Source of the DNA: a virus
IMG/VR virus record: IMGVR_UViG_3300021475_000041
Span: 1-31,557 of that record
DNA: 31,557 nucleotides
Strand: one strand, 5' to 3'
In this document: one piece after another, positions 7,144-25,847 of the stretch
Position numbering within the stretch: the first letter of the stretch is position 1
Layout: the number at the start of each line of letters is the position of its first letter
Notes under the pieces: generated by a model
What the model was told of the DNA's origin: nothing
Databases searched by the model: none
What the model saw: the letters and a program-made list of their open reading frames with translations, nothing else
Position numbers and translations under genes: made by a program

Positions 7144-7491
7144 ATGCCGGACCAACTGACGCGCGGCGCCGTGGTGCACTACGCCGAGCAATCGCTCATC
7201 GTCTGGACGCACAAGCCTGACGGCATTGCGCTCGGTATAGCGATCAGACCGCAGACCGGTCCGCGTCATCGTTCGCACGTTCCCATTTCCCCGACTGCTT
7301 GCCTGCCGCTCGGCTTGCGTCCGCGCGCCTCGATCGTCGCGACCGCCGAGCCGATGATCGCGATCCACCAGCCGCCGCGCGTGCTCGGTCTCGCGCCGGC
7401 AACGCTCCTGGCAGAGATCGCCGATACGATCCGCCGCGCGCACATCGCGAACCGCTTCGAGGTTGCGATGACCGGAGCGATATGGGCGTGA
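7144..7491 (+). CDS. hypothetical protein, 115 aa
   Basis: First gene after the terminator, with GGGAG six bases before the ATG. It starts M-P-D-Q-L-T-R-G-A-V-V-H-Y and looks like a small beta-rich N-terminal half followed by helices (A-T-L-L-A-E-I-A-D-T-I-R-R-A-H-I-A). The end overlaps the ParB-like gene by ten bases, so the two are likely co-translated. I do not recognise the family; the early R-G-A-V-V-H segment recalls SH3-like small proteins but is not enough to assign one. Confidence 0.5.
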   Translation: MPDQLTRGAVVHYAEQSLIVWTHKPDGIALGIAIRPQTGPRHRSHVPISPTACLPLGLRPRASIVATAEPMIAIHQPPRVLGLAPATLLAEIADTIRRAHIANRFEVAMTGAIWA

Positions 7492-8075
7492 CCGCTCGGC
7501 GAGCGGCGAAGACATCGCCGGCGCCGACGATCCAGTGGCCGGCCGATCGCGTCGAGCGCTGGTCGATCGAACGATTGATCCCGTATGCGCGCAACGCGCG
7601 GACCCACTCGGATGCGCAGATCGCGCAGATCGCCGCGTCGATCCGCGAATGGGGCTGGACCATGCCGGTGCTGGTCGATGGCGACGGCACGTTGATCGCC
7701 GGCCACGGTCGCGTGCTCGCGGCGCGGCAACTCGGTATCGCCGAGATTCCGACGATGACCGCGCGCGGCTGGAGCGAGTCGCAGATCAAGGCATACCGGC
7801 TCGCCGACAATCAACTCGCGACGCTCTCGGGTTGGGACGATCAGCTACTCGGCGTCGAGCTTGCCGAGCTTCGCGCGGTCGGCGCCAACCTCGAACTGAT
7901 CGGCTTCGCGACCGGCGACGTCGATAAGCTCATCAACGGACCGCAGGCGCCGAGTCAGTTTGGCGCCTATGACGAGTCGATCCCGGTCGAGCACACCTGT
8001 CCTAAGTGCGGATTCCGCTGGTCGGGCGGATCGAGCGGACCGGCGGGCGAAGGCGGCGATGATCCGTCCGAATAG
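7482..8075 (+). CDS. ParB/Srx-fold N-terminal domain protein with zinc ribbon
   Basis: The protein has 197 residues, with its start at 7482 inside the upstream gene's end. Residues 25-95 are a ParB N-terminal domain: L-I-P-Y-A-R-N-A-R-T-H-S, I-R-E-W-G-W-T-M-P-V-L-V-D, and A-G-H-G-R-V-L-A-A-R-Q-L-G, the position of the nucleotide-binding G-E-R-R-x-x-A motif. No ParB-type helix-turn-helix follows; instead a C-x-x-C pair (H-T-C-P-K-C-G-F-R-W) near residues 171-177 suggests a half zinc ribbon. In phages such proteins often lie beside DNA methyltransferases and act in DNA modification or nicking rather than partition. It overlaps the methyltransferase by 17 bases. Confidence 0.78.
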   Translation: MGVTARRAAKTSPAPTIQWPADRVERWSIERLIPYARNARTHSDAQIAQIAASIREWGWTMPVLVDGDGTLIAGHGRVLAARQLGIAEIPTMTARGWSESQIKAYRLADNQLATLSGWDDQLLGVELAELRAVGANLELIGFATGDVDKLINGPQAPSQFGAYDESIPVEHTCPKCGFRWSGGSSGPAGEGGDDPSE

Positions 8076-9342
8076 CAAGCCGCCGTATTGCATACCGTCG
8101 ATGGTCGAGATCGCGGCGATTCCGTTCAACGGATTGCGCGCGGTCTCGACGTTCTCCGGTTGCGGCGGTTCGTCGCTCGGCTATCGCATGGCAGGCTTCA
8201 AGGTCGCCTGGGCGAACGAATTCATCCCGGCCGCGCGCGATACCTACCGCGCTAACTTCCCCGATACGCGGATCGATGAGCGCGACATCCGGCAAGTCGA
8301 GCCTGCGGAGATACTCGACGCGGCCGGCGTGCTCGCCGGCGAGCTTGATCTATTGGACGGCTCGCCGCCGTGCGCGAGCTTTTCGATGGCCGGCAAACGG
8401 CAGCGCCATTGGGGACAGGTCAAGCGCTACTCGGATGGCAAGCAGCGCACTGACGATCTATTCTTCCAGTTCGTGCGGCTGCTGCGCGGTCTCCAGCCGC
8501 GCGTGTTCGTCGCTGAGAACGTCGCCGGTCTCGTTAAGGGCGTGGGCAAAGGGTTCTTTCTCGATATCCTGGCGGCGTTGAAAGACTGCGGCTACCGCGT
8601 CGAGGCGCGGCTACTCGATGCGCAATGGCTCGGCGTTCCGCAAGCGCGGCAACGGCTGTTCTTTGTCGGGACGCGGCTCGATCTCGCGATCGCTCCGGCG
8701 TTTCCGACGCCGCTCGCATACCGCTACAGCGTCCGCGACGCGCTGCCGTGGATCGGCGCGATCGAGCACGCTAACGGGTTCAACGGTCACGCTATGGAGC
8801 CGGTCGGCGTGCCGGCGCGAACCGTCCAGGCGGGCCGCTCGCTCAAGGTCCGCGTCAGCACCGCGCATCGGTCGCGCTCGATCGACGAACCGGCGCCGAC
8901 CGTGCAGACGCACAATAACCGGCACACCCGGAGCGAGATGGCGATCGAGACCGAAGCGGATATGTCGCGCTATGCGGTCGGTCGCGAGCTAGACAAGCTC
9001 GGACAGGGCCAGCAATCGGCGCGATACTTTCAGCTTACGCGCGCGTCGCTCGACGCGCCGGCCGGGACGATTACCGCAGAGGGCGGCAATCCGAGCCTCG
9101 CGTCGGTCGCGCATCCGACCGAGTGCCGCAAGTTTTCGATTGCCGAGCTACGCGCGATCTGCGGCTTTCCGGCAGACTTCGTGCTGACCGGAACCTACGC
9201 GCAGCAATGGGAACGGCTCGGTCGCGCGGTGCCGCCGCCGATGATGGCGGCGATCGCGGCGACGATCCGCGATCGCGTGCTAGACCCCAAACGCGAAAAG
9301 GGCGCGGATCGCTCCGCGCCCCTTCGTCGAGCAGCCGCGTGA
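8059..9342 (+). CDS. C5-cytosine DNA methyltransferase with Arg in motif X; candidate DNA carboxymethyltransferase
   Basis: The protein has 427 residues. The catalytic core is complete: motif I T-F-S-G-C-G-G-S-S-L-G (31-41), motif II with Glu54, motif IV G-S-P-P-C-A-S-F-S with nucleophile Cys105, motif VI E-N-V (153-155), and motif VIII Q-A-R-Q-R (195-199). The target-recognition region follows (about 250-345). Motif X, normally Q-x-G-N-x-V, reads R-L-G-R-A-V, with Arg389 (codon 9223-9225) in place of the Asn that contacts the cofactor. Changing this Asn to a basic residue in M.MpeI is reported to let the enzyme use carboxy-SAM and form 5-carboxymethylcytosine. With CmoA-like and AsnB-like genes nearby, the same activity is proposed here; ordinary 5-methylation is the alternative. 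Confidence 0.85.
   Translation: MIRPNSKPPYCIPSMVEIAAIPFNGLRAVSTFSGCGGSSLGYRMAGFKVAWANEFIPAARDTYRANFPDTRIDERDIRQVEPAEILDAAGVLAGELDLLDGSPPCASFSMAGKRQRHWGQVKRYSDGKQRTDDLFFQFVRLLRGLQPRVFVAENVAGLVKGVGKGFFLDILAALKDCGYRVEARLLDAQWLGVPQARQRLFFVGTRLDLAIAPAFPTPLAYRYSVRDALPWIGAIEHANGFNGHAMEPVGVPARTVQAGRSLKVRVSTAHRSRSIDEPAPTVQTHNNRHTRSEMAIETEADMSRYAVGRELDKLGQGQQSARYFQLTRASLDAPAGTITAEGGNPSLASVAHPTECRKFSIAELRAICGFPADFVLTGTYAQQWERLGRAVPPPMMAAIAATIRDRVLDPKREKGADRSAPLRRAAA
9300..9321 (-). terminator. intrinsic terminator for the minus-strand lipoprotein gene
   Basis: A perfect nine-base stem GGGCGCGGA/TCCGCGCCC with loop TCGC. Read on the minus strand it is followed by TTTTC. It sits within the last codons of the methyltransferase gene, so one sequence serves both the protein's basic tail and the terminator of the converging gene. 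Confidence 0.7.
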
Positions 9343-9770: not shown

Positions 9771-10406
9771 TCAAGCGGCGATATACCGCGTCTTGCCGTC
9801 CTCCCCCTTCGTCTTGGTGACCGAGCCGGCCGGCAGCAGCTTGATGACCCGCGAGATCGTCGCGCCGGCGGCTTGCCAGCCGAGTTTCTTGCAGACCTCC
9901 GCCTCGGTCGCGCCGTTCGGCCGGCGCATCATGTCGGCGATCGTCGCCTTGCTACCGGTCATCGGCTTCGTCTCGGCTTGCTTGCTCGCCTTCGCCGGCT
10001 TCGCCGCCTTCGGCGCCTTCGGCAACGCGGCGAGCGTCGCCTCTAGCTCGCGCCGCGCCTTGGCGAGCTTGTTCCGCTCGGACTGGAGTCCCGTCGCCCT
10101 CCCCTTCGCGCGCAGCGCTTCGATTTGGGCCTTGAGATCGTCCGCCTTGGCGGCGGCGGCGCCGAGCGTCGCGGGAGACGGTCCGCTCGCCGGCTTCGCC
10201 TTCGCGGCTTCCTTCCGCGCGGCTTCGTTCATCGGAAAGAGCTTCGCCAGTCCAGCCGGACCGGCCTTGCCCGTGCGAGCCGTCTTGGCGGCGCGCTTGG
10301 CTTCGTTCTTCGCGATGTTCTTGTCCATCGCCTTGCGGACAGCCGCCGTCTTGGCAGACATGCCATTGACCTTGCGGGCGGCGGACTTCAGTGTCTTGGT
10401 TGCCAT
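9771..10406 (-). CDS. Lys/Ala-rich DUF3489 protein
   Basis: A 211-residue minus-strand gene. Residues 1-140 are very rich in Lys and Ala, with a likely coiled coil at about 85-130 (D-D-L-K-A-Q-I-E-A-L-R and L-A-K-A-R-R-E-L-E-A-T-L). The C-terminal 65 residues match DUF3489, a small winged-helix-like domain: I-A-D-M-M-R-R-P-N-G-A-T-E-A-E-V, then L-G-W-Q-A-A-G-A-T-I-S-R-V, ending with K-T-R-Y. Such proteins occur widely in alphaproteobacteria and their phages and probably bind DNA, in a histone-like or regulatory role. It lies opposite to the modification genes on each side. Confidence 0.7.
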   Translation of the reverse strand: MATKTLKSAARKVNGMSAKTAAVRKAMDKNIAKNEAKRAAKTARTGKAGPAGLAKLFPMNEAARKEAAKAKPASGPSPATLGAAAAKADDLKAQIEALRAKGRATGLQSERNKLAKARRELEATLAALPKAPKAAKPAKASKQAETKPMTGSKATIADMMRRPNGATEAEVCKKLGWQAAGATISRVIKLLPAGSVTKTKGEDGKTRYIAA

Positions 10407-10511: not shown

Positions 10512-11876
10512 ATGTGCGGAATAATCGGCGGTTACGCCGCGTGGAGCTTTGACGTCGCCGCGCGGCTCGACTTGATCCGTCATCGCGGTCCGGACGGTTC
10601 CGGCGTCTGCACAATCGGTCCGGCGACGCACGGCCACGTCCGCCTGTCGCTGCTCGATCTCACGGACGCATCGGCGCAGCCGTTCCGCTACGGCGACGCG
10701 GTGCTGAGCTTCGTCGGCGAGATTTGGAATTACCGCGCGGTGCGCGCCGAGCTTGAAGCGCAGGGCGTCGCGTTCCGCACTACCGGCGATACCGAAGTGC
10801 TCGCCGCCGCGCTCGCGACCTGGGGCGACGCCGCGCTATCTCGGCTCGAAGGCATGTTCGCGTTCGCCTGGAGCACGCCCGATCGGCACATCCTTGTGCG
10901 CGACCGGTTCGGCAAGGTGCCGCTTTACGTCTCGCGGCGCGGCGGCGCGTTCGCCTGGGCCAGCGAGCGCAAGGGGCTGGGCCGTGAGTGGCCCGCAACC
11001 GCGCTGCCGCCAGGAACCCTCCTAGACCTCGCAACGGGGCAGGTCTCGGCGTGGTATGCGCTTCCGCGCACCGTCGCCGACGATCGTCCGTTGATCGAGG
11101 TCCTCGAGGCCGGCGTCCGCGCGCGGCTGGTCGCCGACGCGCCGCTCTGTTGCCTGATCTCCGGCGGTCTCGATAGCAGTCTCGTGCTGATGCTGGCGCG
11201 CCGGCACAAGCCGGATGTGGTCGCCTATACCGCCGTGCTCGATCAAGGATCGCTCGATCTGCGAGCGGCGCGCCGGCTCTGCCGCGAGCAACAGGTCAGA
11301 TTGATCGAGGTCCCGGTCCGCGCGCCCACGTCGCAAAGTCTCGCCGACGCGGCGCGCGTGATCGAGATCAACAGCAAGGCGCAGATCGAGATTGCGGCGC
11401 TGTGCATACCGCTCGCGCGCGCCATCGCCGGCGACGGCTTCAAGGCGTGCCTGTCCGGCGAAGCGGCCGATGAGTTGTTCGGCGGCTACGGCTCGCTGTG
11501 CATCAAGGGTTCCAAGGCCGACGATGCCGGCTGGCGCGCGCTGCGCATCGCGCAACTCGAAAAGATGGCGCGCGGTAACTTCGTCCGCTGCAACAAGGCA
11601 TTCATGGCGGCTGGCGTCGAGTGCCGGTTGCCCTTCATGGAGCGTGCGCTAGTCGAGCGCGTATTGAGTATGCCGAAGCGTGCCTGTCCGCCAGGAAAGC
11701 GCGCGCTAAAGCAAGCCGCCGCCGGCGTGATACCGCCGTGGATCATCAGCCGTCCGAAAGACACCTTCCAGGGCGCGAGCGGTATGGCGGACGCAGCGGC
11801 GCGCGCGGTCGCCTATCCGGCGGCGTTTTACCGCGCCGAGATCATGACGCAGTTCGGATCATCCGCGAGAGACTGA
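10512..11876 (+). CDS. asparagine-synthetase-like glutamine amidotransferase; candidate base-amidating enzyme
   Basis: A 454-residue protein whose ATG is fixed by the required Cys2 after Met removal. Residues 1-185 are a class II glutaminase domain: M-C-G-I-I-G-G, H-R-G-P-D (24-28), R-L-S-L-L-D (44-49), G-E-I-W-N-Y (69-74), G-D-T-E-V (92-96). Residues 195-454 are the ATP-dependent synthetase domain with the pyrophosphatase loop S-G-G-L-D-S-S (217-223) and S-G-E-A-A-D-E-L-F-G-G-Y (315-326). It is about 100 residues shorter than E. coli AsnB. The oxyanion-hole Asn before G-E-I is Val68, so glutamine use may be weakened. Next to the CmoA-like gene it may amidate a carboxymethyl group rather than aspartate. 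Confidence 0.85.
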   Translation: MCGIIGGYAAWSFDVAARLDLIRHRGPDGSGVCTIGPATHGHVRLSLLDLTDASAQPFRYGDAVLSFVGEIWNYRAVRAELEAQGVAFRTTGDTEVLAAALATWGDAALSRLEGMFAFAWSTPDRHILVRDRFGKVPLYVSRRGGAFAWASERKGLGREWPATALPPGTLLDLATGQVSAWYALPRTVADDRPLIEVLEAGVRARLVADAPLCCLISGGLDSSLVLMLARRHKPDVVAYTAVLDQGSLDLRAARRLCREQQVRLIEVPVRAPTSQSLADAARVIEINSKAQIEIAALCIPLARAIAGDGFKACLSGEAADELFGGYGSLCIKGSKADDAGWRALRIAQLEKMARGNFVRCNKAFMAAGVECRLPFMERALVERVLSMPKRACPPGKRALKQAAAGVIPPWIISRPKDTFQGASGMADAAARAVAYPAAFYRAEIMTQFGSSARD

Positions 11877-11878
11877 GC

Positions 11879-12577
11879 ATGGACGCCGCGCCGAGCTTCG
11901 ATATTCCGAGCAATTGGACCTTCGAGGACAAGGGTGTTGCCGATGGCTTCGATCGGCACGTCCGCGAACAGCTACCGTGGTATGAGTTGGCGACCGGCGC
12001 AGTCGCGCACGTCGCGCGGCATTACATTCCGCTCGATGGCGTGGTCTATGATCTCGGCGCGGCGACCGGCAATATCGGGCGCGCGCTCGCGCCGACGCTG
12101 CAAGTGCGCAAAGCGATGCTGATATCGGTCGAGCCGTCCGCCGAGATGGCAGCGGCGTATCGCGGACCGCAGCGCAATAACCTGGAGATCGAGCGCGCCG
12201 AGCGCGTCAAGTTTCAACCGTTCGATGTCGCGGTCGCATTCCTGACGCTGATGTTCGTCCCCGTCGCCGAGCGCGCGCCGTTGCTCGATCGCCTATTCGA
12301 CGCGATGCGTCCCGGCGGCGTGCTGATCGTATTCGATAAGTGCGAGGCGGACAGCGGCTATGCGGGCACTGTGCTGTGGCGCCTGGCGCTAGCAGGAAAG
12401 CTCGCAACCGGCGTCGATCCTGCCGAGATCGTCGCTAAAGAATTGTCGCTGTCCGGCGTGCAGCGTCCGCTATCGCGCGGCGTGTTGCCGGCGCACGCGC
12501 TCGAATTCTTCCGCTTCGGCGAATTCGCCGGCTGGCTGATCGAAAAGGAAATCCCAAGATGTCGCCAGGACCCATGA
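11879..12577 (+). CDS. CmoA-like SAM enzyme; candidate carboxy-SAM synthase
   Basis: The protein has 232 residues and begins two bases after the AsnB-like stop. It follows CmoA along its whole length: W-T-F-E (13-16), V-A-D-G-F-D-R-H-V near 20-28, P-W-Y for P-G-Y, the SAM-binding V-Y-D-L-G-A-A-T-G-N (56-65), F-L-T-L-M-F-V, R-P-G-G-V-L-I-V-F-D-K (144-154), and the CmoA-specific region V-D-P-A-E-I (179-184). CmoA turns SAM plus prephenate into carboxy-SAM. In my by-eye alignment the E. coli Arg199 that binds the carboxylate falls at Glu188, beside Lys187, so cofactor synthesis is not assured. No CmoB partner is present, which argues against the usual tRNA role. Confidence 0.75.
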   Translation: MDAAPSFDIPSNWTFEDKGVADGFDRHVREQLPWYELATGAVAHVARHYIPLDGVVYDLGAATGNIGRALAPTLQVRKAMLISVEPSAEMAAAYRGPQRNNLEIERAERVKFQPFDVAVAFLTLMFVPVAERAPLLDRLFDAMRPGGVLIVFDKCEADSGYAGTVLWRLALAGKLATGVDPAEIVAKELSLSGVQRPLSRGVLPAHALEFFRFGEFAGWLIEKEIPRCRQDP

Positions 12578-15490: not shown

Positions 15491-16939
15491 ATGGCGCTGC
15501 GCGACTTCATCACCCGCGTCGGGATGCGTCTCCGGCTGATTACGCGCAACGCGTGGCTGCCGACCGTGCCGCCGAGGGAATGGGGACATACGTGGTATCA
15601 GTCCGGCTATCCGTCGCCGAACACGATGCCGCCGCTGCTTACGTTCCCGGCGGTCTATACGTCGATCGATACCATCAGCAGCGACATCGCGCGGTTGCCG
15701 GTCAAGCATTACAAGATGGAGCAGGGCCAGCGCATCGAGGTCGAGAATTCCGCGCCGCTACGCGTGCTCGACAAGCCGAACGGCTACCAGACCCGCTTCG
15801 ATATGATGAAGCAATTCGTCGCGGCACAACTCTATCGCGGCAACAGCTACCTGTATGCGAAGCGCAACCGGCGTTATGAGATCGATGAGCTTCACGTGCT
15901 GTTCCCCGATAACGTCTATGCCTATCGCTCCGGCAGCGAAGTCTTCTATGAGGTTGGCGCGCAACCGCTCGCCGAGATCGACGTCCGGAAGATGCTGACG
16001 ACGCGTGAGTGTCTCCACCATCGCATGTTCACGCTCGCCGATCCGTTGATGGGTATCACGCCGCTGATCGCGGCGGCGCTCTCGACGTCGGCGGGGATGG
16101 CGATCATCCGGCAGTCCGAGCGGTTCTTTAACCAAATGGCGCGACCGTCCGGCGTATTGTCCACCGCCGGCCGGCTCGATCCGAAGAAAGCGCAGGACAT
16201 CAAGGATCGCTGGAACGCGGTCTATAAGGGCATCCAGAATAACGCCGGCGATGTCGCGGTCCTCGAGGAAGGGCTCGAATGGAAAGCCCTGACGATGACC
16301 TCGGTCGATGCGCAGTTGATCGAGCAGCTACGCTATACCGTGGAAGACGTCGCGCGGGTCTATCGGTTGCCGATCTTCATGCTCGGCGATCTGACGAAAG
16401 TCTCATACAATTCGTCGGAACAGCTTGTGCGGATTTACTACTCGGGCTGTCTGGTCGCGCACATGGTCGCGCTCGAAGACAGGTTCTCCCAATTCTTCGA
16501 TATGAACGGGCGCACCGAGTGGCTCGAATTCGATACCGATTACCTGTTCCGGACCGAGATGGTCGCGCGCATCGAAGCGCTCGCGAAGTCGGTGCAAGGC
16601 GGTATCCGCACGCCGAATGAGGCGCGCATCATCGAGGGTCTCAATCCGGTCTCCGGCGGCGATGTGATCTTCATGCAGCAACAGATGGCGCCGGTCGAGG
16701 TCCTCGCGACGCGCGCCGATCTAACCAGCAAGCCGCCGAGCGGTCCGGCGCCGACGCCGCAACCGGCCGCGCTACCGGCGCCGGAGCGCACCCCCGTAGC
16801 GGTGCCCTCAGACGCGCTACGCGACGCGTTGATGGGTGCCGTGTTCGCGGACCGGCCGGCGAGCCGGACGCTCCTAGCCCCTGTCGAGCGGCGAGCAACA
16901 AGGCGACTGATCCATGGACGGCGATCTCGCATTGCCTGA
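15491..16939 (+). CDS. HK97-family portal protein
   Basis: The portal protein, 482 residues, forms the dodecameric channel at the head vertex through which DNA is packaged. Family features run in order: V-Y-T-S-I-D-T-I-S-S-D-I-A-R-L-P (54-69), G-N-S-Y-L-Y (116-121), L-F-P-D-N-V near 137, the H-x-x-x-F-T-L-A-D-P-L-M-G-I-T-P-L segment near 178, P-S-G-V-L-S, Q-L-I-E-Q-L-R-Y-T-V-E-D-V-A-R-V-Y-R-L-P, and R-T-P-N-E-A-R near 373. The C-terminal 80 residues are Pro/Ala-rich. It follows capsid instead of preceding protease, the reverse of the common order, and no terminase lies upstream in the window. Confidence 0.92.
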   Translation: MALRDFITRVGMRLRLITRNAWLPTVPPREWGHTWYQSGYPSPNTMPPLLTFPAVYTSIDTISSDIARLPVKHYKMEQGQRIEVENSAPLRVLDKPNGYQTRFDMMKQFVAAQLYRGNSYLYAKRNRRYEIDELHVLFPDNVYAYRSGSEVFYEVGAQPLAEIDVRKMLTTRECLHHRMFTLADPLMGITPLIAAALSTSAGMAIIRQSERFFNQMARPSGVLSTAGRLDPKKAQDIKDRWNAVYKGIQNNAGDVAVLEEGLEWKALTMTSVDAQLIEQLRYTVEDVARVYRLPIFMLGDLTKVSYNSSEQLVRIYYSGCLVAHMVALEDRFSQFFDMNGRTEWLEFDTDYLFRTEMVARIEALAKSVQGGIRTPNEARIIEGLNPVSGGDVIFMQQQMAPVEVLATRADLTSKPPSGPAPTPQPAALPAPERTPVAVPSDALRDALMGAVFADRPASRTLLAPVERRATRRLIHGRRSRIA

Positions 16940-19900
16940 GACGTTCATCGACGCGGTAGTGCGCGCGCTCGCGCCGGTGCTCGTGCGGTTGCGCGAGGAC
17001 GTCCAGGCGCGGCTTGACGCGTTCGAGGTTGCGCTCGCCGAGCGGATGGCCGAGCGGCAACTCCAGACCGGCGAGCTACTCGATGAGAGCCGGCGCCACG
17101 CCGAGGACTCGATCCGGCAAAGTGCCGAAGCGGTCCGCTCGCTCGCCGCGCTGGTGGTCGCCGAGACCCGCGCGATGCCGGACCGGCTTACCCAGCAAGT
17201 CGCGCTGCTGCCGCGTCCGCGCGATGGCCGCGACGGTCACTTGACGATCGCGCACGGCTACGTCGCCGGCCGCGTCTATGATCCTGGCGAGCTTTGCCGG
17301 CATCGCGGCGGAACGTGGCAGGCGATCGACCGGACCGCCGACACGCCGGGACCGGACGCGACGACATGGCGCATCGTCGCGGACGGCTTGCACGAGATCG
17401 ACGGCACGCAGGACGCGGGCGATCCGCGCGCGTTCACGCTCGGCGTCGAGCAAAGCGACGGCTTGCGGCGCGAGCTTGCGGTCCGCTTCCCGATTCCGCT
17501 CCACCGCCGGCAGTTCGCCGGCGATGCGGTCTATGAGATGGGCGATGAGGTTGCGCTCGACGGTAGCACTTGGCGCTGTGTGGTCGAGCGCGCGAACACG
17601 TCGCCGCCGTCGCCGGAATGGGCGCTGGTCTCGCAACGCGGCGGACGCGGCAAGCAGGGCGAGCGCGGACCGCAGGGCGAGCAAGGCGTCTCCGGTGCGC
17701 CAGGACGGCACGGCGAGCCGGGACCTGTTGGCGTAGCGGGGCCAGCCGGTCGCGGCGTCTCCGGCGTCCGTAGCGTTAGCGCTGGGGTGATTCAACTCAT
17801 CTTCACCGATGACGAATTGAGCGAGCCGATCGACGTGACCGCGTTCCGCTATCGCGGCGCCTATAAACCCGGCGAGAGCTATAGCGCGGGCGATGTCGTC
17901 CGGCTCGGCTTCAATCTCTTCATCGCGCTTGCGCGGACCGAGAGCGTGCCGAGCAACGCGTCGAGTGATTGGGCGTTGTTCCTGCCGGGTGTCGAGCCGG
18001 CGTCGGGTAGCGGCATTCCCGGCTCAGAGACGTTTGTCGTGCGAGCCGGCGATAACATGACCGGAGCGCTCGGCTTATTCGGTCCACCGACGCAACCGCT
18101 CCACGCGACAACGAAGGCTTACGTCGATGCGATCGTCGGTGCTCGGGCGACCTATCGCGGTCTCTGGCAGGTCGCGCTAAACGATCCGGATTTGACCGCC
18201 ATCGTCGCCAACCCCGGCGACTATTACACGGCTACCACCGCTGATCCGGCGATGCCCGAGCGGGCGCCTCCGGAGATCGCCGGCATCGGCGGCGAGATCA
18301 TCAGCAATGGCGACTTCGTTATCTGGACCCACGAACGCGACGAATGGGAGCATCTCGGCGGCGGCGGACTGACGCGCATCGAGGCGGACGATCTCTATGT
18401 GTTCAAGGCCGGCGATACGATGACCGGCGTGCTGCGCGTAACCCATCCGAGCGGACCGGGCGCCGAGATCGGTCTATCGACCAGTCTCGGCGACGCCATC
18501 ATTGCATTGGGTGGAACCGAAATCTCGGTTGTGCGATTTGACGCGGACGGACTCCACCGCTGGGCAATCGGCACGACGGGCCTCCAGCTAGGGAATTATG
18601 ATCTCGGCTTCGTCCGCTACGGCGCGACCGGCCAGCCGCTCGACGTGCCGATCCGCTTCGTCTCGGCGGATGGTAGCTTGCAGATCAATAACGAAATATT
18701 CATGCACAAAGCGGGCGACCAGACCGGCAACGCGCCCTCTGTTCGTTGGGCCGACGATAGCGGCAATCTGGCGTGGATTTACGGCTCGCGTTCGGCGTTG
18801 CTCGGCGGTCCGGCCCTGATCTTCCGCGTCGAGAATATCCCGGCGGCGGACGGTAGTCCGCAAGGTGCTGAGACGTTGATGCGCTCGCGTCCGGCCGACG
18901 TGTTGGGCGAGCCACCGCACCTCGAACTGATGATCGACCCGGCCGAGCCGCAAGACGCGGCGACGAAGCGCTATATCGACGATCTGCTCGCGCCGCTGCC
19001 CGGCGAGTATGTGTTGAAAGCCGGCGATACGATGACCGGGCGCCTAACAATCACGGACCCGATTTTCGAGCCGGCAGTCGAGTTGCGCGGCACAGAGCAC
19101 GCCGGGATTCTGTTTAGCGACTCCCGAGATACCGCACCGTTATGGTCGCTTGCTTACAATATCCAAGGCGTCGGTGGGCCGATTGGATTCAACATTAGTC
19201 GATTTAGTCCCGACGGCTTAACTCCGGAAGATATTGGTATCATCTCGATTGACAATAACAGCCTAATTACCGCCAGGACGATCCGCACGCGCGACGGCGA
19301 TCCGGTCAATGACAACGATCTCGCGCGCAAGGCGTATGTCGATACGCTTGCCGACAACTTTGTGCTCAAGGCCGGCGATATGATGACCGGCGATCTCGAA
19401 TTCGACGTGGGATCGCCGGTTCTGCCGATCAATCGTGCGCCCGGTATCGTATGGGAGGCCGAGCGCTTCGGTGTCTTCGTTGCTGACAGTGCCGGAGTGA
19501 CCGGGCTTTGCCTGCAAGCCGATCGTCTCGACCATCTATTCGCGGTCGATGAATTCACGAACCGCGCGGAAATCCTAACCGAGCGAACCGGAATCATGGT
19601 TCGCGGCGGCGATCGTGGCGAGATGACCGGATTCCTGACGCTGCACGCTAATCCGGTCGATGACCTGCACGCCGCGCCGAAGCAATACATCGATGAGCTA
19701 TTCGATCGCGGTCCCGATCTATTCGTCGCGAAGGGCGGCGATACGATGACCGGCAATCTGATGGTGCGCTTTCAAGATACCGGACCGTCATCGTCAGTAT
19801 CGCTCGGCACGGTCGCCGGCTCGCTCGCCGCGCTGCAACTCGACGGGATCGACGGCGAGATATTGCAATTCGCCCGCGAGGGTTCCGGCAAATGGACATT

Positions 19901-22265
19901 CGGCGTCACGCCGATGGTAGGTCTAGCCGAGGATCTCGCGATTATCCGCCACGCCGCAGACGGATCGGTTGCGGATATTCCGCTGCGCATCGCGTTAGGA
20001 TCGGGTCTCATCTCCGTCGTGAATCATATCCGCACGAGCGCGGGCGATCCGGTCGATGACAACGATCTCGTGCGGAAATCCTATATCGACACGCTCGCGA
20101 CGTCGCTGATCCGCTATCAGGGTCTCTGGCAGGTCGCGGCGAACGCTCCGGACCTTATTACGTGGCCTGCGCAATCGGGCGATTACTTCATCGCCGAGAC
20201 CGCCGATCCGCAGATCGCCGAGACCGCGCCGGCCGGCATTCCCGGCATCGGCGGACAAACGATCTTTAATCACGACTGGATTCTCTGGTCGCCGCGATTG
20301 AACGAATGGGAGCGCTTGGTCGGCTCGGGTGGTGGTCTGACGCGGCCGGAGGCGGATGCGCGGTATATCGTCAAGACTGGCGACGATATGCAGGGCTTCC
20401 TGACCCTGTTCGACGATCCGGTTACCGATATGCACGCCGCGAGCAAGCGCTATATCGACCGGCGGATGGTCCGCGATTGGGCGATCGGATTGGAGATCGC
20501 GGCCGGCGAGGTTGTGCGCTGGGATAATATGCTATTCCGGGCGCGCCTCGCGATTCCGTCCGCGCCGGCGACGCCGGACTATTCGACGCTCGATCTCTAC
20601 GGTCAGAATCAGGGCGACTATTGGCAAGGCGCGCCGTCGCTAACGAATTACGCGACCGGCAACTGGATGCAATTGGTCACGTTACCGGCTTACGGCTCAT
20701 TCCGCTTTCATATAGACGTGTATGGTAATACCTGCGACTGTTCGTTCATACTCGACATCACCACCACATTTAACGCCGCGTCGATGTCGCTCTCGATGGC
20801 GCGCAATCCTGCCGGCCTTATGTTCGATCAATTCCGGCTCAGCGATACCGGCGGCGCTACGGTCAAGCGACTAGAAGCGCGCCTCCGGAATGCCGGCACT
20901 ACGCCATCATTCAAAATCCACTGTCTGGGGATGCACCGCGAGGTTAATACCCCTAATCAGGTGATTATCCCGAAGCCGCCGCAGGCACTTGCGGGCGGCG
21001 CCAATCTCGGCGGGACGCAGCGCGTCTTGCTAACCGGTCTCGAAACAGCGGGCGTTACCGCCGCCGACAGCAATATCGCCATAACGAACGGCGGCTTTAT
21101 TCGCTTCGGGCACGCTAACGCGATCGACGTAAACGACGGAAGGATGGGCGCGCGGCTATTCGGTCGCGGACTCAACATCGTTGGCATCCCGACCGAGGCA
21201 GGCAATACCGAGCGGTATATACAACTGTTTGGCATCGTCGAAAACGTGAACCGCAATTTCGTCACGGCCACGGACGGCTACGGCTTAGAGACGATGGCGG
21301 GAGGGCGCTTCTACAAAGCGGTCGGCACCGGTCTCGTTATTCGCTGCCATAGCGGCAACACGCAGCCGCAGATTGAGGATAACAATGGCAGCAACCGCCG
21401 TGCGATTCTTGATACGCGCGGCGGCACCCTGACCGGTGGGCTGAGCTTTGGCAGCGTAGCGCAGGCGAGCGTCACCGACTTGTCGCGGCATCTCGCGCTC
21501 TGGGGCACCACCTTCGGCTTTAGCATTACCGGCGGACGGCTTAACGCCGTCGTGCCCGCCGCGAATTCCTTTGTAATAACGGTCGGCGGCGCCGACGTTG
21601 CATCGTTCTTTAATAACGGAATCAACGCCAACCAGCCGATCAATGTCCGCCAGCCGAACAATACCGTCGCTGTGCGTCTGATGGCCGCGACCAATGCGGC
21701 CGGCGTTATTAGTCCCTGGCTCTTGGGAACCGATAGCACCAACAATGAATTCGGCCGCATCTGGTGGGACGGACCGGGGTGGAATGGCCGGTGGGAAGCG
21801 CGGCTGCACTTCGGCATGAATATGGGCGGCTATGGCTGGACCGAGAATGCGCGCTTTAATACCTATCAAAGCGGCGGCCAGTTTTACGTCATCAACGACT
21901 GTTCCGTTCAGTCGCTAACCCAGCGCAGCGCGCGAGCCGACAAGCGCGACATTCGCGCCGCGCAAGCCGACGAAGTGCAAGCCGCCTGGGACCGGATCAC
22001 GGTGCATCGTTTCCGATGGAACGAACCGCCGCCGCCGGTCGATGACAAGGGCAAGCGGTTGCCGCACCCCGCGCCGTATATCGAACGGCGCATGAAATTC
22101 GGTTTCATCGCCGACGATCTGCCGGAAGACTTGCAAATGTATGCCGCTCCTGGCGTTCCTGATCCGACCAAGGTCGAGGGTTACGATCTCGCGCAAGTGC
22201 TCGCGCTGACCGTCGCCAAGGTCAAAGCGCTCGAAGCCGAGATCGCCGAGCTACGCAATGCCTGA
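16914..22265 (+). CDS. giant collagen-containing fibre protein with C-terminal S74-like chaperone
   Basis: The product has 1783 residues; its start overlaps the portal gene by 26 bases. Order of parts: a helical N-terminus (20-95, likely coiled coil), two carbohydrate-binding-like small beta modules around 120-240, about 40 residues of G-x-y collagen repeats (about 243-284), another small module, then six or more repeats built on A-G-D-T-M-T-G-x-L followed by K-x-Y-V/I-D, known from tail fibres. A G-L-W-Q-V module of about 95 residues occurs twice (near 413 and 1068). The end, from about 1665 (S1672, D1676), resembles the S74 intramolecular chaperone with F-G-F-I-A-D-D and a final coiled coil. 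A receptor-binding fibre is likely; its place in the head module leaves head or neck fibres possible. Confidence 0.8.
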   Translation: MDGDLALPETFIDAVVRALAPVLVRLREDVQARLDAFEVALAERMAERQLQTGELLDESRRHAEDSIRQSAEAVRSLAALVVAETRAMPDRLTQQVALLPRPRDGRDGHLTIAHGYVAGRVYDPGELCRHRGGTWQAIDRTADTPGPDATTWRIVADGLHEIDGTQDAGDPRAFTLGVEQSDGLRRELAVRFPIPLHRRQFAGDAVYEMGDEVALDGSTWRCVVERANTSPPSPEWALVSQRGGRGKQGERGPQGEQGVSGAPGRHGEPGPVGVAGPAGRGVSGVRSVSAGVIQLIFTDDELSEPIDVTAFRYRGAYKPGESYSAGDVVRLGFNLFIALARTESVPSNASSDWALFLPGVEPASGSGIPGSETFVVRAGDNMTGALGLFGPPTQPLHATTKAYVDAIVGARATYRGLWQVALNDPDLTAIVANPGDYYTATTADPAMPERAPPEIAGIGGEIISNGDFVIWTHERDEWEHLGGGGLTRIEADDLYVFKAGDTMTGVLRVTHPSGPGAEIGLSTSLGDAIIALGGTEISVVRFDADGLHRWAIGTTGLQLGNYDLGFVRYGATGQPLDVPIRFVSADGSLQINNEIFMHKAGDQTGNAPSVRWADDSGNLAWIYGSRSALLGGPALIFRVENIPAADGSPQGAETLMRSRPADVLGEPPHLELMIDPAEPQDAATKRYIDDLLAPLPGEYVLKAGDTMTGRLTITDPIFEPAVELRGTEHAGILFSDSRDTAPLWSLAYNIQGVGGPIGFNISRFSPDGLTPEDIGIISIDNNSLITARTIRTRDGDPVNDNDLARKAYVDTLADNFVLKAGDMMTGDLEFDVGSPVLPINRAPGIVWEAERFGVFVADSAGVTGLCLQADRLDHLFAVDEFTNRAEILTERTGIMVRGGDRGEMTGFLTLHANPVDDLHAAPKQYIDELFDRGPDLFVAKGGDTMTGNLMVRFQDTGPSSSVSLGTVAGSLAALQLDGIDGEILQFAREGSGKWTFGVTPMVGLAEDLAIIRHAADGSVADIPLRIALGSGLISVVNHIRTSAGDPVDDNDLVRKSYIDTLATSLIRYQGLWQVAANAPDLITWPAQSGDYFIAETADPQIAETAPAGIPGIGGQTIFNHDWILWSPRLNEWERLVGSGGGLTRPEADARYIVKTGDDMQGFLTLFDDPVTDMHAASKRYIDRRMVRDWAIGLEIAAGEVVRWDNMLFRARLAIPSAPATPDYSTLDLYGQNQGDYWQGAPSLTNYATGNWMQLVTLPAYGSFRFHIDVYGNTCDCSFILDITTTFNAASMSLSMARNPAGLMFDQFRLSDTGGATVKRLEARLRNAGTTPSFKIHCLGMHREVNTPNQVIIPKPPQALAGGANLGGTQRVLLTGLETAGVTAADSNIAITNGGFIRFGHANAIDVNDGRMGARLFGRGLNIVGIPTEAGNTERYIQLFGIVENVNRNFVTATDGYGLETMAGGRFYKAVGTGLVIRCHSGNTQPQIEDNNGSNRRAILDTRGGTLTGGLSFGSVAQASVTDLSRHLALWGTTFGFSITGGRLNAVVPAANSFVITVGGADVASFFNNGINANQPINVRQPNNTVAVRLMAATNAAGVISPWLLGTDSTNNEFGRIWWDGPGWNGRWEARLHFGMNMGGYGWTENARFNTYQSGGQFYVINDCSVQSLTQRSARADKRDIRAAQADEVQAAWDRITVHRFRWNEPPPPVDDKGKRLPHPAPYIERRMKFGFIADDLPEDLQMYAAPGVPDPTKVEGYDLAQVLALTVAKVKALEAEIAELRNA
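17748..17774 (+). repeat. 27-base direct repeat, copy in first fibre gene
   Basis: Identical to 25152-25178 in the third fibre gene; encodes G-R-G-V-S-G-V-R-S directly after the collagen segment. A second exact match of 35 bases follows (17826-17860 with 25230-25264). Confidence 0.85.
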
Positions 22266-24510
22266 CGATCTCGACTTCACCCGGCTTGCTGATGAGGTTG
22301 CGGCGCGCCTGATCGATCAAGCGGGACCGCGCGTTAGCTTCACGCAGCTTGCCCGCGATTGGCAACCCGGCGAAATCCACGAGCAGGGCGCCGTTGTCTC
22401 GCACCAGGGCGGTATCTGGCAGGCGCGCGTGCGCACCGCGTCGCGACCGTCCGCCGAGACCGGCGAGTGGTTGCTCCTGACCAATGGCATCCGGCTCGTG
22501 CGCAGCTATCAGGAGCGCGACGATCCGCGCGTGTTCGGCTTGCTGATCGGGCTGACCGGCGGGAGGACGATCGATCTCCCGTTCCGGCTCGCGCTACCGG
22601 TGCACCGAGGCCAATACCGCGCCGGCGCGCATTACTTCGAAGGCGATGAGGTCGAATTCGGCGGCGCGACGTTCCGCGCGTTGATCGAGGCCCCCGGCGC
22701 GCCGGACGGCGAAGGCTGGATCGTGGTCGCCGCGCGCGGTCGCCAGGGCTTTACCGGCGAGCGCGGACCGCAAGGCGAGATCGGGCCGGCCGGCGAGCGC
22801 GGCGAGCCAGGAGCCGCCGGCCGCGACGGACCGCGCGGCGACGCCGGCGAGCCGGGGCCGCGCGGACCGGGGATCGCCGCGATCGAGCCGGTCGCCGGTA
22901 ACCCCGGCTTTATTCGCGTGGTCCTCGAGGACGGCTCGATCTCGGACCCGATCGAGGTCTCGACGATGCGCTTCGTCGGCATCTATCGACCGGGCGCCGA
23001 GTATGAGCGCGGCAATATCGTCCGGCTCGGCTTCAATCTCTGGATATGCGTCGAATCGACCGGTGACGTTCCGACCGCGACATCCGACAAGTGGACGATC
23101 TTCCTTGTCGCGCCGGAGATGGCTCTCGGTGGCGCGAGTGGCGGCGGCGCTCCCGATCTGCCGACGCTCGATCAGCGCTATGTGAACAAGGCCGGCGGCG
23201 ATTGGATGAATGGACCGCTGCAAATTCGCAGCGATACGATGGCCTTCCCCGGTCTGCAATTCGTCAATACGGCAGGCGACGTGATGATCGGCGGAATTCG
23301 AAGCATCGTCCGGCCGGGCGATGGCGGCGAATTGACGCTTTCGGTGCTGGTCGGCACCGCGCTCTTGGATGCGATAGGCATCTATCCCGGTCTCGATGGC
23401 CTTCCGCACGTCAATGTCTTTACCGAGCCGACCGTCGATAATGACGTCGCGACGAAGCGCTATGTCGATCAGTTCGCCGGCGGCGGCGCTTTCCTTCCGC
23501 TCGCCGGCGGCACGATGACCGGCGTGCTTCTGTTCGCGGCGGGGCAGGGCTTGGGATTCCTGCCGGGATTCTCTGCGGTCTATGAAGACGCCGCTGGGTT
23601 GACGCTCCGGCAGGCGAACGGCGACGCCGGCGTATTCATCGAGGGAAGCGGCGGCACACCCGGTTCGCGGCGTCGCATTCTAGTCGAGGGCGATGCTCTA
23701 ACACAGGGCGACGCCGACAACCGGTATCTGGCAATCATCGGCAGTCAGGTTCACGGAGAACTCACTTTCGTTCGCCCAGATGGCAATCCGGACCTTCCCT
23801 TACAGCCCGGTATTACGTTTAGCGCGCGACTTGCGCGTATCTATTGGGACGTCGCCGGCTTGATTATCCGGCGCGGCACGGCAAACGAGCCGGTGGTAAT
23901 CGAGAACAACAATGGCACGGCGCGTAGTCCGATTATCACGCAGGCAATGGGCGACGCGCGCTATCTGCAACTCGCCGCCGGCGGAATCGTCGCCGGACCG
24001 ATGCAACTCTTGCAGACGCCGATCCTTCCGACCGACGTCGTGACGAAGGGTTACGTCGATACCACCGCGAGCACGCCGATCACGCTCCGCACGCAAGTCT
24101 ATATGCCGGATGAATTCGCTATCGCGGCGCCGTCCACGGCGACGGTGTTCTTCGATCAAGACTTCCAGCTTCCGCCGACCGGTATCCGGATGCTGCTGAT
24201 TACGGTCGATCCGATGTTCGCTTCGGCCGATGCGGCAGGCACGCCCTGGTATGTGGTCTATGGCTGCAACCTCATCGCGATCGAAAGCTCGATGATGGTT
24301 TACAAGATGGACAATACCAGTCCGGCCGGGATGCTCCGGTCCCAGGCGAAGTTTGCTGTTGGCGTCGATGCGACGCCCGGCTTGGTGCGCGTCACACTGA
24401 CCGTGCGCTGCCCGACGGTAGGATCGCCGGTGGTTCAGGTCGGTGTCGGCGGCACGATCGCGCCGACCATGCGCACTCTCGTTACCATTCAGGATTTGGG
24501 ACCGCCGTAA
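22258..24510 (+). CDS. collagen-containing fibre paralogue 2
   Basis: The product has 750 residues; its start overlaps the first fibre gene by eight bases. It repeats the plan of its neighbour on a smaller scale: a short helical N-terminus, a CBM5/12-like module at 33-75 (W-Q-P-G-E-I-H-E-Q-G-A-V-V), a second module with H-Y-F-E-G-D-E-V near 125-140, collagen G-x-y repeats at 161-205, another sugar-binding-like module near 225-270, and several G-G-T-M-T-G/K-G-Y-V-D fibre repeats. The last 130 residues differ from the other two and form a beta-rich tip without an S74 chaperone. It probably trimerises and may bind glycans of the host surface. Confidence 0.78.
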   Translation: MPDDLDFTRLADEVAARLIDQAGPRVSFTQLARDWQPGEIHEQGAVVSHQGGIWQARVRTASRPSAETGEWLLLTNGIRLVRSYQERDDPRVFGLLIGLTGGRTIDLPFRLALPVHRGQYRAGAHYFEGDEVEFGGATFRALIEAPGAPDGEGWIVVAARGRQGFTGERGPQGEIGPAGERGEPGAAGRDGPRGDAGEPGPRGPGIAAIEPVAGNPGFIRVVLEDGSISDPIEVSTMRFVGIYRPGAEYERGNIVRLGFNLWICVESTGDVPTATSDKWTIFLVAPEMALGGASGGGAPDLPTLDQRYVNKAGGDWMNGPLQIRSDTMAFPGLQFVNTAGDVMIGGIRSIVRPGDGGELTLSVLVGTALLDAIGIYPGLDGLPHVNVFTEPTVDNDVATKRYVDQFAGGGAFLPLAGGTMTGVLLFAAGQGLGFLPGFSAVYEDAAGLTLRQANGDAGVFIEGSGGTPGSRRRILVEGDALTQGDADNRYLAIIGSQVHGELTFVRPDGNPDLPLQPGITFSARLARIYWDVAGLIIRRGTANEPVVIENNNGTARSPIITQAMGDARYLQLAAGGIVAGPMQLLQTPILPTDVVTKGYVDTTASTPITLRTQVYMPDEFAIAAPSTATVFFDQDFQLPPTGIRMLLITVDPMFASADAAGTPWYVVYGCNLIAIESSMMVYKMDNTSPAGMLRSQAKFAVGVDATPGLVRVTLTVRCPTVGSPVVQVGVGGTIAPTMRTLVTIQDLGPP

Positions 24511-25847
24511 TGGATGAGATCGCCCTCGCCGAAGCCGTCGCGACGGCTCTCGCTGAACGGCTCGGCGCGCAGCCGGCCGGTCGCCTGATCGGCGTCGCCG
24601 AGCCAGCGATGACCGCGCCCGTCGATTTGACGCAACCGGCGCGCGTCTGGCGCGAGGGCGATATCTATGAACAGGCGGCGGTTGTCTTTCACGCCGGCGG
24701 CTTGTGGCAGTCGCGCCAGCCGACCGCCGCGCGTCCGCCAGGACGGATCGGCGAGTGGCTGTTGATCGCCGATGGCATCCGCTCGGTGCACGCCTATCAG
24801 GAGGGCGTCGATCCGCGCGCGTTCGGCGTGGTGGTAACGCTCGCCTCCGGCAACGTGATCGATCTGCCGGTCCGTCTGCCGCTGCCGTTGCATCGCGGCG
24901 CGCATGATCCGGCAATCGCCTATCACCAGGGCGATGAAGTCGCCTTCGCCGGCGCGACGTATCGCGCGCTCCACGACGCGCCGGGACCGCCGGACGGCGA
25001 CGGCTGGGCGATGGTCTCGGCGTCCGGCCGCGACGGCGAGCGCGGCGAGCAAGGCCCACCGGGCGAACGCGGCGAACCGGGCGCTACCGGCTCGCCGGGC
25101 GTGCCTGGACCCGCTGGCGGGCTTGGCCCGCTTGGTCCCCAAGGCCGACCCGGTCGCGGCGTCTCCGGCGTCCGTAGCCCCGGCGTCGGCATGGTCCAGC
25201 TAATCTTCGACGATGAGGTATTGAGCGATCCGATCGACGTGACCGCGTTCCGCTATCGCGGCGCGTATCAGCCCGGAGCGAGCTACGGCGCCGGCGATGT
25301 CGTCCGGCTCGGCTATAACCTCTGGATCGCGGTTGTCGGCACCGATGGCGTGCCGGGTGCGAGCAATCCGGATTGGGCGCTGTTCCTACCGGGCGTCGAG
25401 CCGTCGAGCGGCGGCGCCGGCGGCGGTAGCGGCGGCGGCTTCACCCAGGCGGACGCCGATCAGCTCTATCTATCGCTCGGCGGCGGCGAGGTCACCGGTC
25501 CGTTGCAGGTGCCGCTTGGCGCGCTCGCCGGACCGGCTCTGCAATTTGGCGCAACCGCGACCGGATTATTTTCAGCCGGTGGGGCGCTAATCGTCGATGT
25601 CGGCGGCACTTTGGTAGCTCAGTTTATGCAGGCCCAGGTGATGATGGTTGTGCCGTTGAATATGGCACTTAACCGGATCACCAATCTGGCGGCGCCAGCC
25701 GCCGCGAGCGATGCCGCACCGCGCAGTTACGTCGATACCACGGACGCGGCAACGCGCAGCTACGTCGATACAACGGACGCGGCAACGCGCGCACTTATTA
25801 CCGCGCTCGATGCGCGCGTCGCCGCATTGGAGGCGGCGGGACCATGA
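24510..25847 (+). CDS. collagen-containing fibre paralogue 3, short form
   Basis: A 445-residue protein whose start shares one base with the preceding stop. Residues 45-170 hold two small beta modules (W-R-E-G-D-I-Y-E-Q-A-A-V-V and Y-H-Q-G-D-E-V-A-F-A-G-A-T-Y), then collagen repeats at 173-218, then R-G-V-S-G-V-R-S and a third module nearly identical in DNA to that of the first fibre gene. A Gly-rich linker and two 11-residue repeats (R-S-Y-V-D-T-T-D-A-A-T) lead to a coiled-coil end (A-R-V-A-A-L-E-A-A). It lacks a receptor-tip domain, so it could be a shaft or adaptor, or a truncated relic. Confidence 0.78.
   Translation: MDEIALAEAVATALAERLGAQPAGRLIGVAEPAMTAPVDLTQPARVWREGDIYEQAAVVFHAGGLWQSRQPTAARPPGRIGEWLLIADGIRSVHAYQEGVDPRAFGVVVTLASGNVIDLPVRLPLPLHRGAHDPAIAYHQGDEVAFAGATYRALHDAPGPPDGDGWAMVSASGRDGERGEQGPPGERGEPGATGSPGVPGPAGGLGPLGPQGRPGRGVSGVRSPGVGMVQLIFDDEVLSDPIDVTAFRYRGAYQPGASYGAGDVVRLGYNLWIAVVGTDGVPGASNPDWALFLPGVEPSSGGAGGGSGGGFTQADADQLYLSLGGGEVTGPLQVPLGALAGPALQFGATATGLFSAGGALIVDVGGTLVAQFMQAQVMMVVPLNMALNRITNLAAPAAASDAAPRSYVDTTDAATRSYVDTTDAATRALITALDARVAALEAAGP
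25152..25178 (+). repeat. 27-base direct repeat, copy in third fibre gene
   Basis: Exact copy of 17748-17774, with 25230-25264 matching 17826-17860. The two tracts lie about 7.4 kb apart in the same frame and orientation, so recombination would fuse fibre 1 to fibre 3 and delete fibre 2. Confidence 0.85.
25722..25787 (+). repeat. two tandem 33-base units near the fibre 3 C-terminus
   Basis: Units 25722-25754 and 25755-25787 differ at only two positions (T/C and C/A) and encode R-S-Y-V-D-T-T-D-A-A-T twice. Recent duplication of a trimerisation-repeat step. Confidence 0.8.

Follow-up and report, generated by a model that had tools for sequence, protein, structure and literature searches.

The CmoA gene and its neighbours

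The window, that is, the whole stretch of 31,557 nucleotides analysed here, comes from an IMG/VR virus record of 31.6 kb. Judged by homology, it carries the previously published cassette for 5-carboxymethylcytosine, which consists of a ParB-like protein, CmoX, a glutaminase-type CmoY and CmoA. The features discussed below are as follows.

7482..8075, + strand: ParB-like protein, 197 aa (PHROG 620 ParB-like, E 6.5e-50)
8059..9342, + strand: CmoX, cytosine C5-carboxymethyltransferase homolog, 427 aa (Pfam C-5 cytosine DNA methylase, E 4.8e-54)
8362..8373, + strand: SPPC catalytic motif of CmoX (Cys105), aligned to S95-C98 of S-B43 CmoX
9223..9225, + strand: Arg389 of CmoX (GRAVPP), equivalent to S-B43 Arg350; Asn in ordinary C5-methyltransferases
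9771-10406, - strand: DUF3489 gene, between CmoX and CmoY
10512..11876, + strand: CmoY, asparagine-synthetase-like amide ligase with N-terminal glutaminase, 454 aa (Pfam GATase_6/GATase_7/Asn_synthase)
11879..12577, + strand: CmoA, Cx-SAM synthase homolog, 232 aa, beginning 2 nt past CmoY
12437..12442, + strand: codons of Lys187-Glu188 of CmoA, aligned to E. coli Lys198-Arg199
12464..12466, + strand: codon of Arg196 of CmoA (E. coli position 207), candidate replacement of Arg199 with a putative role

It has been reported by Yang et al. (Nat Commun, December 2025; PMC12783734) that CmoA, CmoX and CmoY form a phage pathway, for which LC-MS proof was given. In this pathway, CmoA of the Synechococcus phage S-B43 makes carboxy-SAM (Cx-SAM), as established by mass spectrometry, with a kcat of 2.33/s compared with 0.23/s for the E. 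coli enzyme; S-B43 CmoX uses Cx-SAM, not SAM, to carboxymethylate cytosine at C5, and its Arg350 touches the Cx-SAM carboxylate at a position where the HhaI methyltransferase has Asn; and S-B43 CmoY ligates glycine to the CmoX product (PMC12783734). Thousands of phage CmoX proteins were reported, often beside CmoA, a ligase and a ParBc protein, together with a second CmoY cluster that has a glutaminase domain and is a predicted ammonia user, for which soluble protein was not obtained (PMC12783734).

The best PDB match of the window CmoX is 8yf3 (E 4.6e-66), the crystal structure of S-B43 CmoX (PMC12783734). Both the SPPC motif (Cys105) and the Arg at S-B43 position 350 (Arg389) are present in the window CmoX, and by analogy the enzyme would use Cx-SAM, selected via Arg389. 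The ParB-like gene adjoins CmoX in most related loci. The window CmoY has the asparagine-synthetase fold, the N-terminal Cys glutaminase and the SGGxDS ATP site, and keeps Cys1, Arg49, Gly75, Glu76 and Asp98 of E. coli AsnB; the oxyanion hole is altered, since Val68 (10713-10715) takes the place of Asn74 while Gly75 is kept. Val at this position was found in 4/53 CmoY sequences (the window and loci L041, L170 and L174), and the amine donor of the window CmoY may accordingly differ. Two opposite-strand genes lie between CmoX and CmoY, among them the DUF3489 gene. In close relatives of the window, CmoX and CmoA are not separated by a CmoY gene, and none turned up when the rest of 18 related records was searched, without a positive control, for CmoY. 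A similar lysine/alanine-rich reverse-strand ORF lies between CmoX and CmoA in L001, where CmoY is absent. Further along the window, three long ORFs in tandem (16914-25847) contain Gly-X-Y stretches resembling collagen and probably encode tail fibre proteins.

The CmoA ORF is complete, with an ATG start. A PDB sequence search placed E. coli CmoA (4gek, E 4.5e-12), H. influenzae YecO (1im8) and CmoA (4iwn) at the top, and the same three structures came first when an AlphaFold2 model of the window protein (mean pLDDT 79) was compared with known structures (Foldseek E about 1e-13; VIA Z 20.2 for 4iwn). In this model the window protein matches CmoA along nearly its entire length, in agreement with the sequence-only reading, which had described it as tracking CmoA from end to end. 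The SAM-contact residues Tyr39, Asp62 and Gly64 and the acidic residue 164 of E. coli CmoA are present as Tyr35, Asp58, Gly60 and Asp153. Similarly, the lid segment bearing Lys165, Lys185 and Lys198 is found in the window protein; in homolog alignments the Lys at 198 is invariant and those at 165 and 185 are nearly so. In the TIGR00740 equivalog test, the window CmoA scored 57.1 bits, below the cut-off of 193.3, and S-B43 CmoA, a proven Cx-SAM synthase, likewise fell below it (115.6 bits).

Position 199 and a proposed displaced basic residue

It has been reported (Byrne et al. 2013, PMC3663124) that in E. coli CmoA the carboxylate of Cx-SAM is bound by Arg199 through a salt bridge of 2.7 A. 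In both the phmmer and the MAFFT alignments, Lys187 and Glu188 of the window protein pair with E. coli Lys198 and Arg199, as the sequence-only reading had found by eye. It had also allowed that the alignment might be shifted by one residue, and this was ruled out: of 175 homologs, all keep Lys198 and 174 keep Pro208, which lies ten residues further; being invariant and nearly invariant, respectively, these two anchor the segment and fix the register.

The absence of Arg199 is not peculiar to the window. Glu stands at position 199 in 77/83 sequences (73 IMG/VR loci, 9 annotated phages and the window), so that, on the sequences compared, it is the usual state in the window's branch of the CmoA family and no anomaly. 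The S-B43 CmoA sequence, read from its genome region (...EIMDKEKELRDMLKP...), also has Glu at the Arg199 position. Since this enzyme, the only characterised phage Cx-SAM synthase, makes Cx-SAM (PMC12783734), Glu199 is compatible with Cx-SAM synthesis and Arg199 does not define Cx-SAM synthases; the earlier view of Glu188 as the weak point of the carboxy-SAM model thus falls away. Arg199 had been proposed as a mark of carboxy-SAM proteins, and most phage CmoA lack it, so searches demanding Arg199 would overlook phage CmoA. In the CmoA tree, the clade with Arg at position 207, to which the window CmoA belongs, is split from S-B43 and E. coli CmoA by a branch with support 100; the S-B43 assay is therefore no assay of the window's clade, and no published assay of any CmoA of the Glu199/Arg207 clade was found in the literature searched.

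A basic residue is present at position 199, 203 or 207 in 174/175 homologs: at 199 in 33, at 203 in 15 and at 207 only in 126. The set with a basic residue at 199 is the bacterial type, accompanied by Glu203 in 23/23 counted, while S-B43 CmoA has Arg203 and the window CmoA has Arg196, equivalent to position 207. The three positions follow one another at intervals of about one turn, where the Arg199 helix ends and in the loop beyond it. Two further CmoA proteins, with Ser199/Lys203 (L133) and Asn199/Lys203 (L165), each lie in a locus with a homolog of cmoB, a known Cx-SAM user. These residue patterns suggest that the displaced Arg probably stands in for Arg199 as the carboxylate ligand, which makes Arg at 203 or 207 a testable Arg199 replacement. 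The pattern tracks phylogeny and could be a coincidence.

The sequence-only reading had proposed instead that Lys187 takes over, for which no specific support was found. Lys187 adjoins position 199 and is invariant in 175/175, but enzymes with Arg199 also have this Lys without exception, so that it already has a role there; moreover, a Lys187 ligand would leave unexplained why a basic residue occurs at 203 or 207 when 199 is non-basic. Replacement of Arg199 by Lys187 is thus considered unlikely, and the role of carboxylate ligand is better assigned, tentatively, to Arg at 203 or 207. Compensation by Arg212 (E. coli Gln231) was at first attractive, the position being basic in 83/83 sequences of the first alignment; it was rejected once bacterial CmoA were added, as many Arg199 enzymes have Lys or Arg at 231, and also since Verrucomicrobial Glu199 enzymes have Gln there.

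CmoA partners in related loci

Relatives of the window CmoY were searched for independently, and 48 cassettes were examined. Arg is found at the 350 position in every CmoX present in them, as it is in all loci pairing a Glu199/Arg207-type CmoA with a full-scoring CmoX homolog. Glu199/Arg207 CmoA predominates among the 48; however, the bacterial type with Glu203 occurs in L196-L200, L203-L207 and L211, with Lys in place of Arg at 199 in L203, L204 and L207. The gene order in the cassettes with Arg199-type CmoA is CmoX-CmoY-CmoA, except in L211, and three of these CmoA partners tested on TIGR00740 scored 154-165 bits. In the CmoX tree, in which some rows lie on long branches, the Arg199 label changes twice and the Arg203 label twice, both forced by supported branches, and an Arg199 partner appears at two separate places within Glu199-partnered CmoX, an Arg203-type partner at a further two. 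Phages have thus exchanged bacterial-type and phage-type CmoA while the DNA-modifying enzymes CmoX and CmoY beside them stayed the same, from which it follows that both types most likely supply the same cofactor, Cx-SAM.

This exchange bears on the suggestion that the window CmoA makes or uses a novel cofactor. The Glu199/Arg207 clade, which contains most sampled phage CmoA, might make a carboxylated analogue other than Cx-SAM, or make Cx-SAM from some donor that is not prephenate, and bind the carboxylate through another Arg; this is regarded as very unlikely. Slightly less probable still is that the clade makes some other SAM analogue, with an acidic or neutral group, for its own CmoX: the clade is deep and an acidic residue replaces the known ligand Arg199, but the window CmoX retains the carboxylate-contacting Arg of S-B43 CmoX, Arg199-type CmoA substitutes for the Glu199 type beside the same CmoX-CmoY pair, and S-B43 CmoA makes Cx-SAM with Glu at 199. 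A novel cofactor is therefore unlikely, and the system belongs to the published CmoA-CmoX-CmoY kind. The sequence-only reading was right that a carboxy-SAM model was the one to test.

CmoX is missing from the neighbourhood of many CmoA genes of the Glu199/Arg207 type. In several of these CmoX-less loci, the upstream gene encodes a ParB-like domain fused to a class I methyltransferase domain, a protein of PHROG 5475, which carries no functional annotation. When viral contigs were searched for the fusion protein independently of CmoA, with an alignment as query, 80 loci were obtained; within the fetched stretches, a CmoA homolog was found in 77/80 and CmoX in 0/80. The order in four loci read is ParB, ParB-methyltransferase, a protein of about 140 residues that is HAD-like by eye, and CmoA, with terminase further downstream. 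Such cassettes include L214:2965-6174, L117:743-3015, L067:1830-6690, L230 (where the CmoA match is weak), L235, L244 and others, and their CmoA is mostly of the Glu199/Arg207 type. The ParB-methyltransferase fusion is a candidate for a second Cx-SAM-dependent nucleic-acid carboxymethyltransferase, and this second conserved CmoA cassette, which has no C5-methyltransferase, looks newer than the window cassette. A preliminary search in the published work yielded no adenine-N6 or cytosine-N4 candidate (PMC12783734).

Other arrangements were seen in single loci or small groups. In L067:4115-5502, Amidoligase_2 and gamma-glutamyl cyclotransferase-like genes lie upstream of CmoA, with no CmoX in the fetched stretch. 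In L069:6624-7826, L070 and L071, another C5-methyltransferase family (GSPC) stands beside CmoA and has Arg at the 350 position (ALGRSMAVP). Several CmoA copies, mostly CmoX-linked, occur within single Verrucomicrobia MAGs (L097-L113, L116, L118, L126 and L128), perhaps in several prophages. A Polynucleobacter contig (L115:3754-12014) has a Glu199-type CmoA and lacks CmoX; its neighbours, judged by eye, are an asparagine-synthase-like protein and several methyltransferases, possibly in a surface-polysaccharide region.

Proposed pathway and comparison with known systems

That the window CmoA is a conventional SAM-dependent methyltransferase with a small-molecule or tRNA substrate is highly improbable: its Pfam matches are generic methyltransferase domains and its fold is also near the methyltransferase CysG(N-16), but the family profile search puts CmoA structures ahead of CysG(N-16) by about 10 or more orders of magnitude in E-value, the lid Lys residues are kept, and the operon is a Cx-SAM DNA-modification cassette.

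The preferred reading, to which a probability of about 85% is assigned, is that a Cx-SAM synthase of the Glu199/Arg207 clade feeds CmoX and then CmoY. In the proposed pathway, the window CmoA would convert SAM and host prephenate into Cx-SAM, with Arg196, displaced along the Arg199 helix and the loop after it, probably holding the carboxylate; CmoX, in which Arg389 would select the carboxylated cofactor, would then move the carboxymethyl group onto C5 of cytosine in the phage DNA; and CmoY would amidate the carboxylate, most likely with glutamine-derived ammonia, to give 5-carbamoylmethylcytosine. For the window itself, direct observation covers the homology, the residues, the operon and the replacement of CmoA types beside the same CmoX-CmoY pair. 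Cx-SAM synthesis by the window CmoA, as a member of its clade, is very probable. 5-Carbamoylmethylcytosine as the final product is only slightly favoured, because close relatives are without CmoY and Asn74 is Val in the window CmoY.

Compared with bacterial CmoA (E. coli, 4gek/4iwn; Byrne et al. 2013), the window CmoA has in common the fold, the SAM pocket (Tyr39/Asp62/Gly64) and Lys165/185/198, but has Glu where Arg199 stands and a C-terminal part about 8 residues shorter beyond the Lys-Glu segment; it would serve a DNA carboxymethyltransferase, whereas bacterial CmoA serves a tRNA carboxymethyltransferase. The S-B43 system shares with the window all three genes, Glu at CmoA position 199, and the SPPC motif and carboxylate-binding Arg of CmoX. 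However, S-B43 CmoA has Arg203 and lies on a different branch, and S-B43 CmoY lacks a glutaminase domain and adds glycine, while the window CmoY has such a domain. In its domain make-up the window CmoY is like the second CmoY cluster (type A0A7T0Q3R0), which occurs with CmoA and CmoX; the likeness is by domain make-up, and in the window protein the oxyanion Asn74 is replaced by Val. As for CmoX, the engineered M.MpeI N374K, as cited in PMC12783734, indicates that exchanging the motif X Asn for a basic residue enables a C5-methyltransferase to use Cx-SAM; the window CmoX carries such a motif X basic residue naturally, as Arg, whereas M.MpeI N374K acquired it by engineering.
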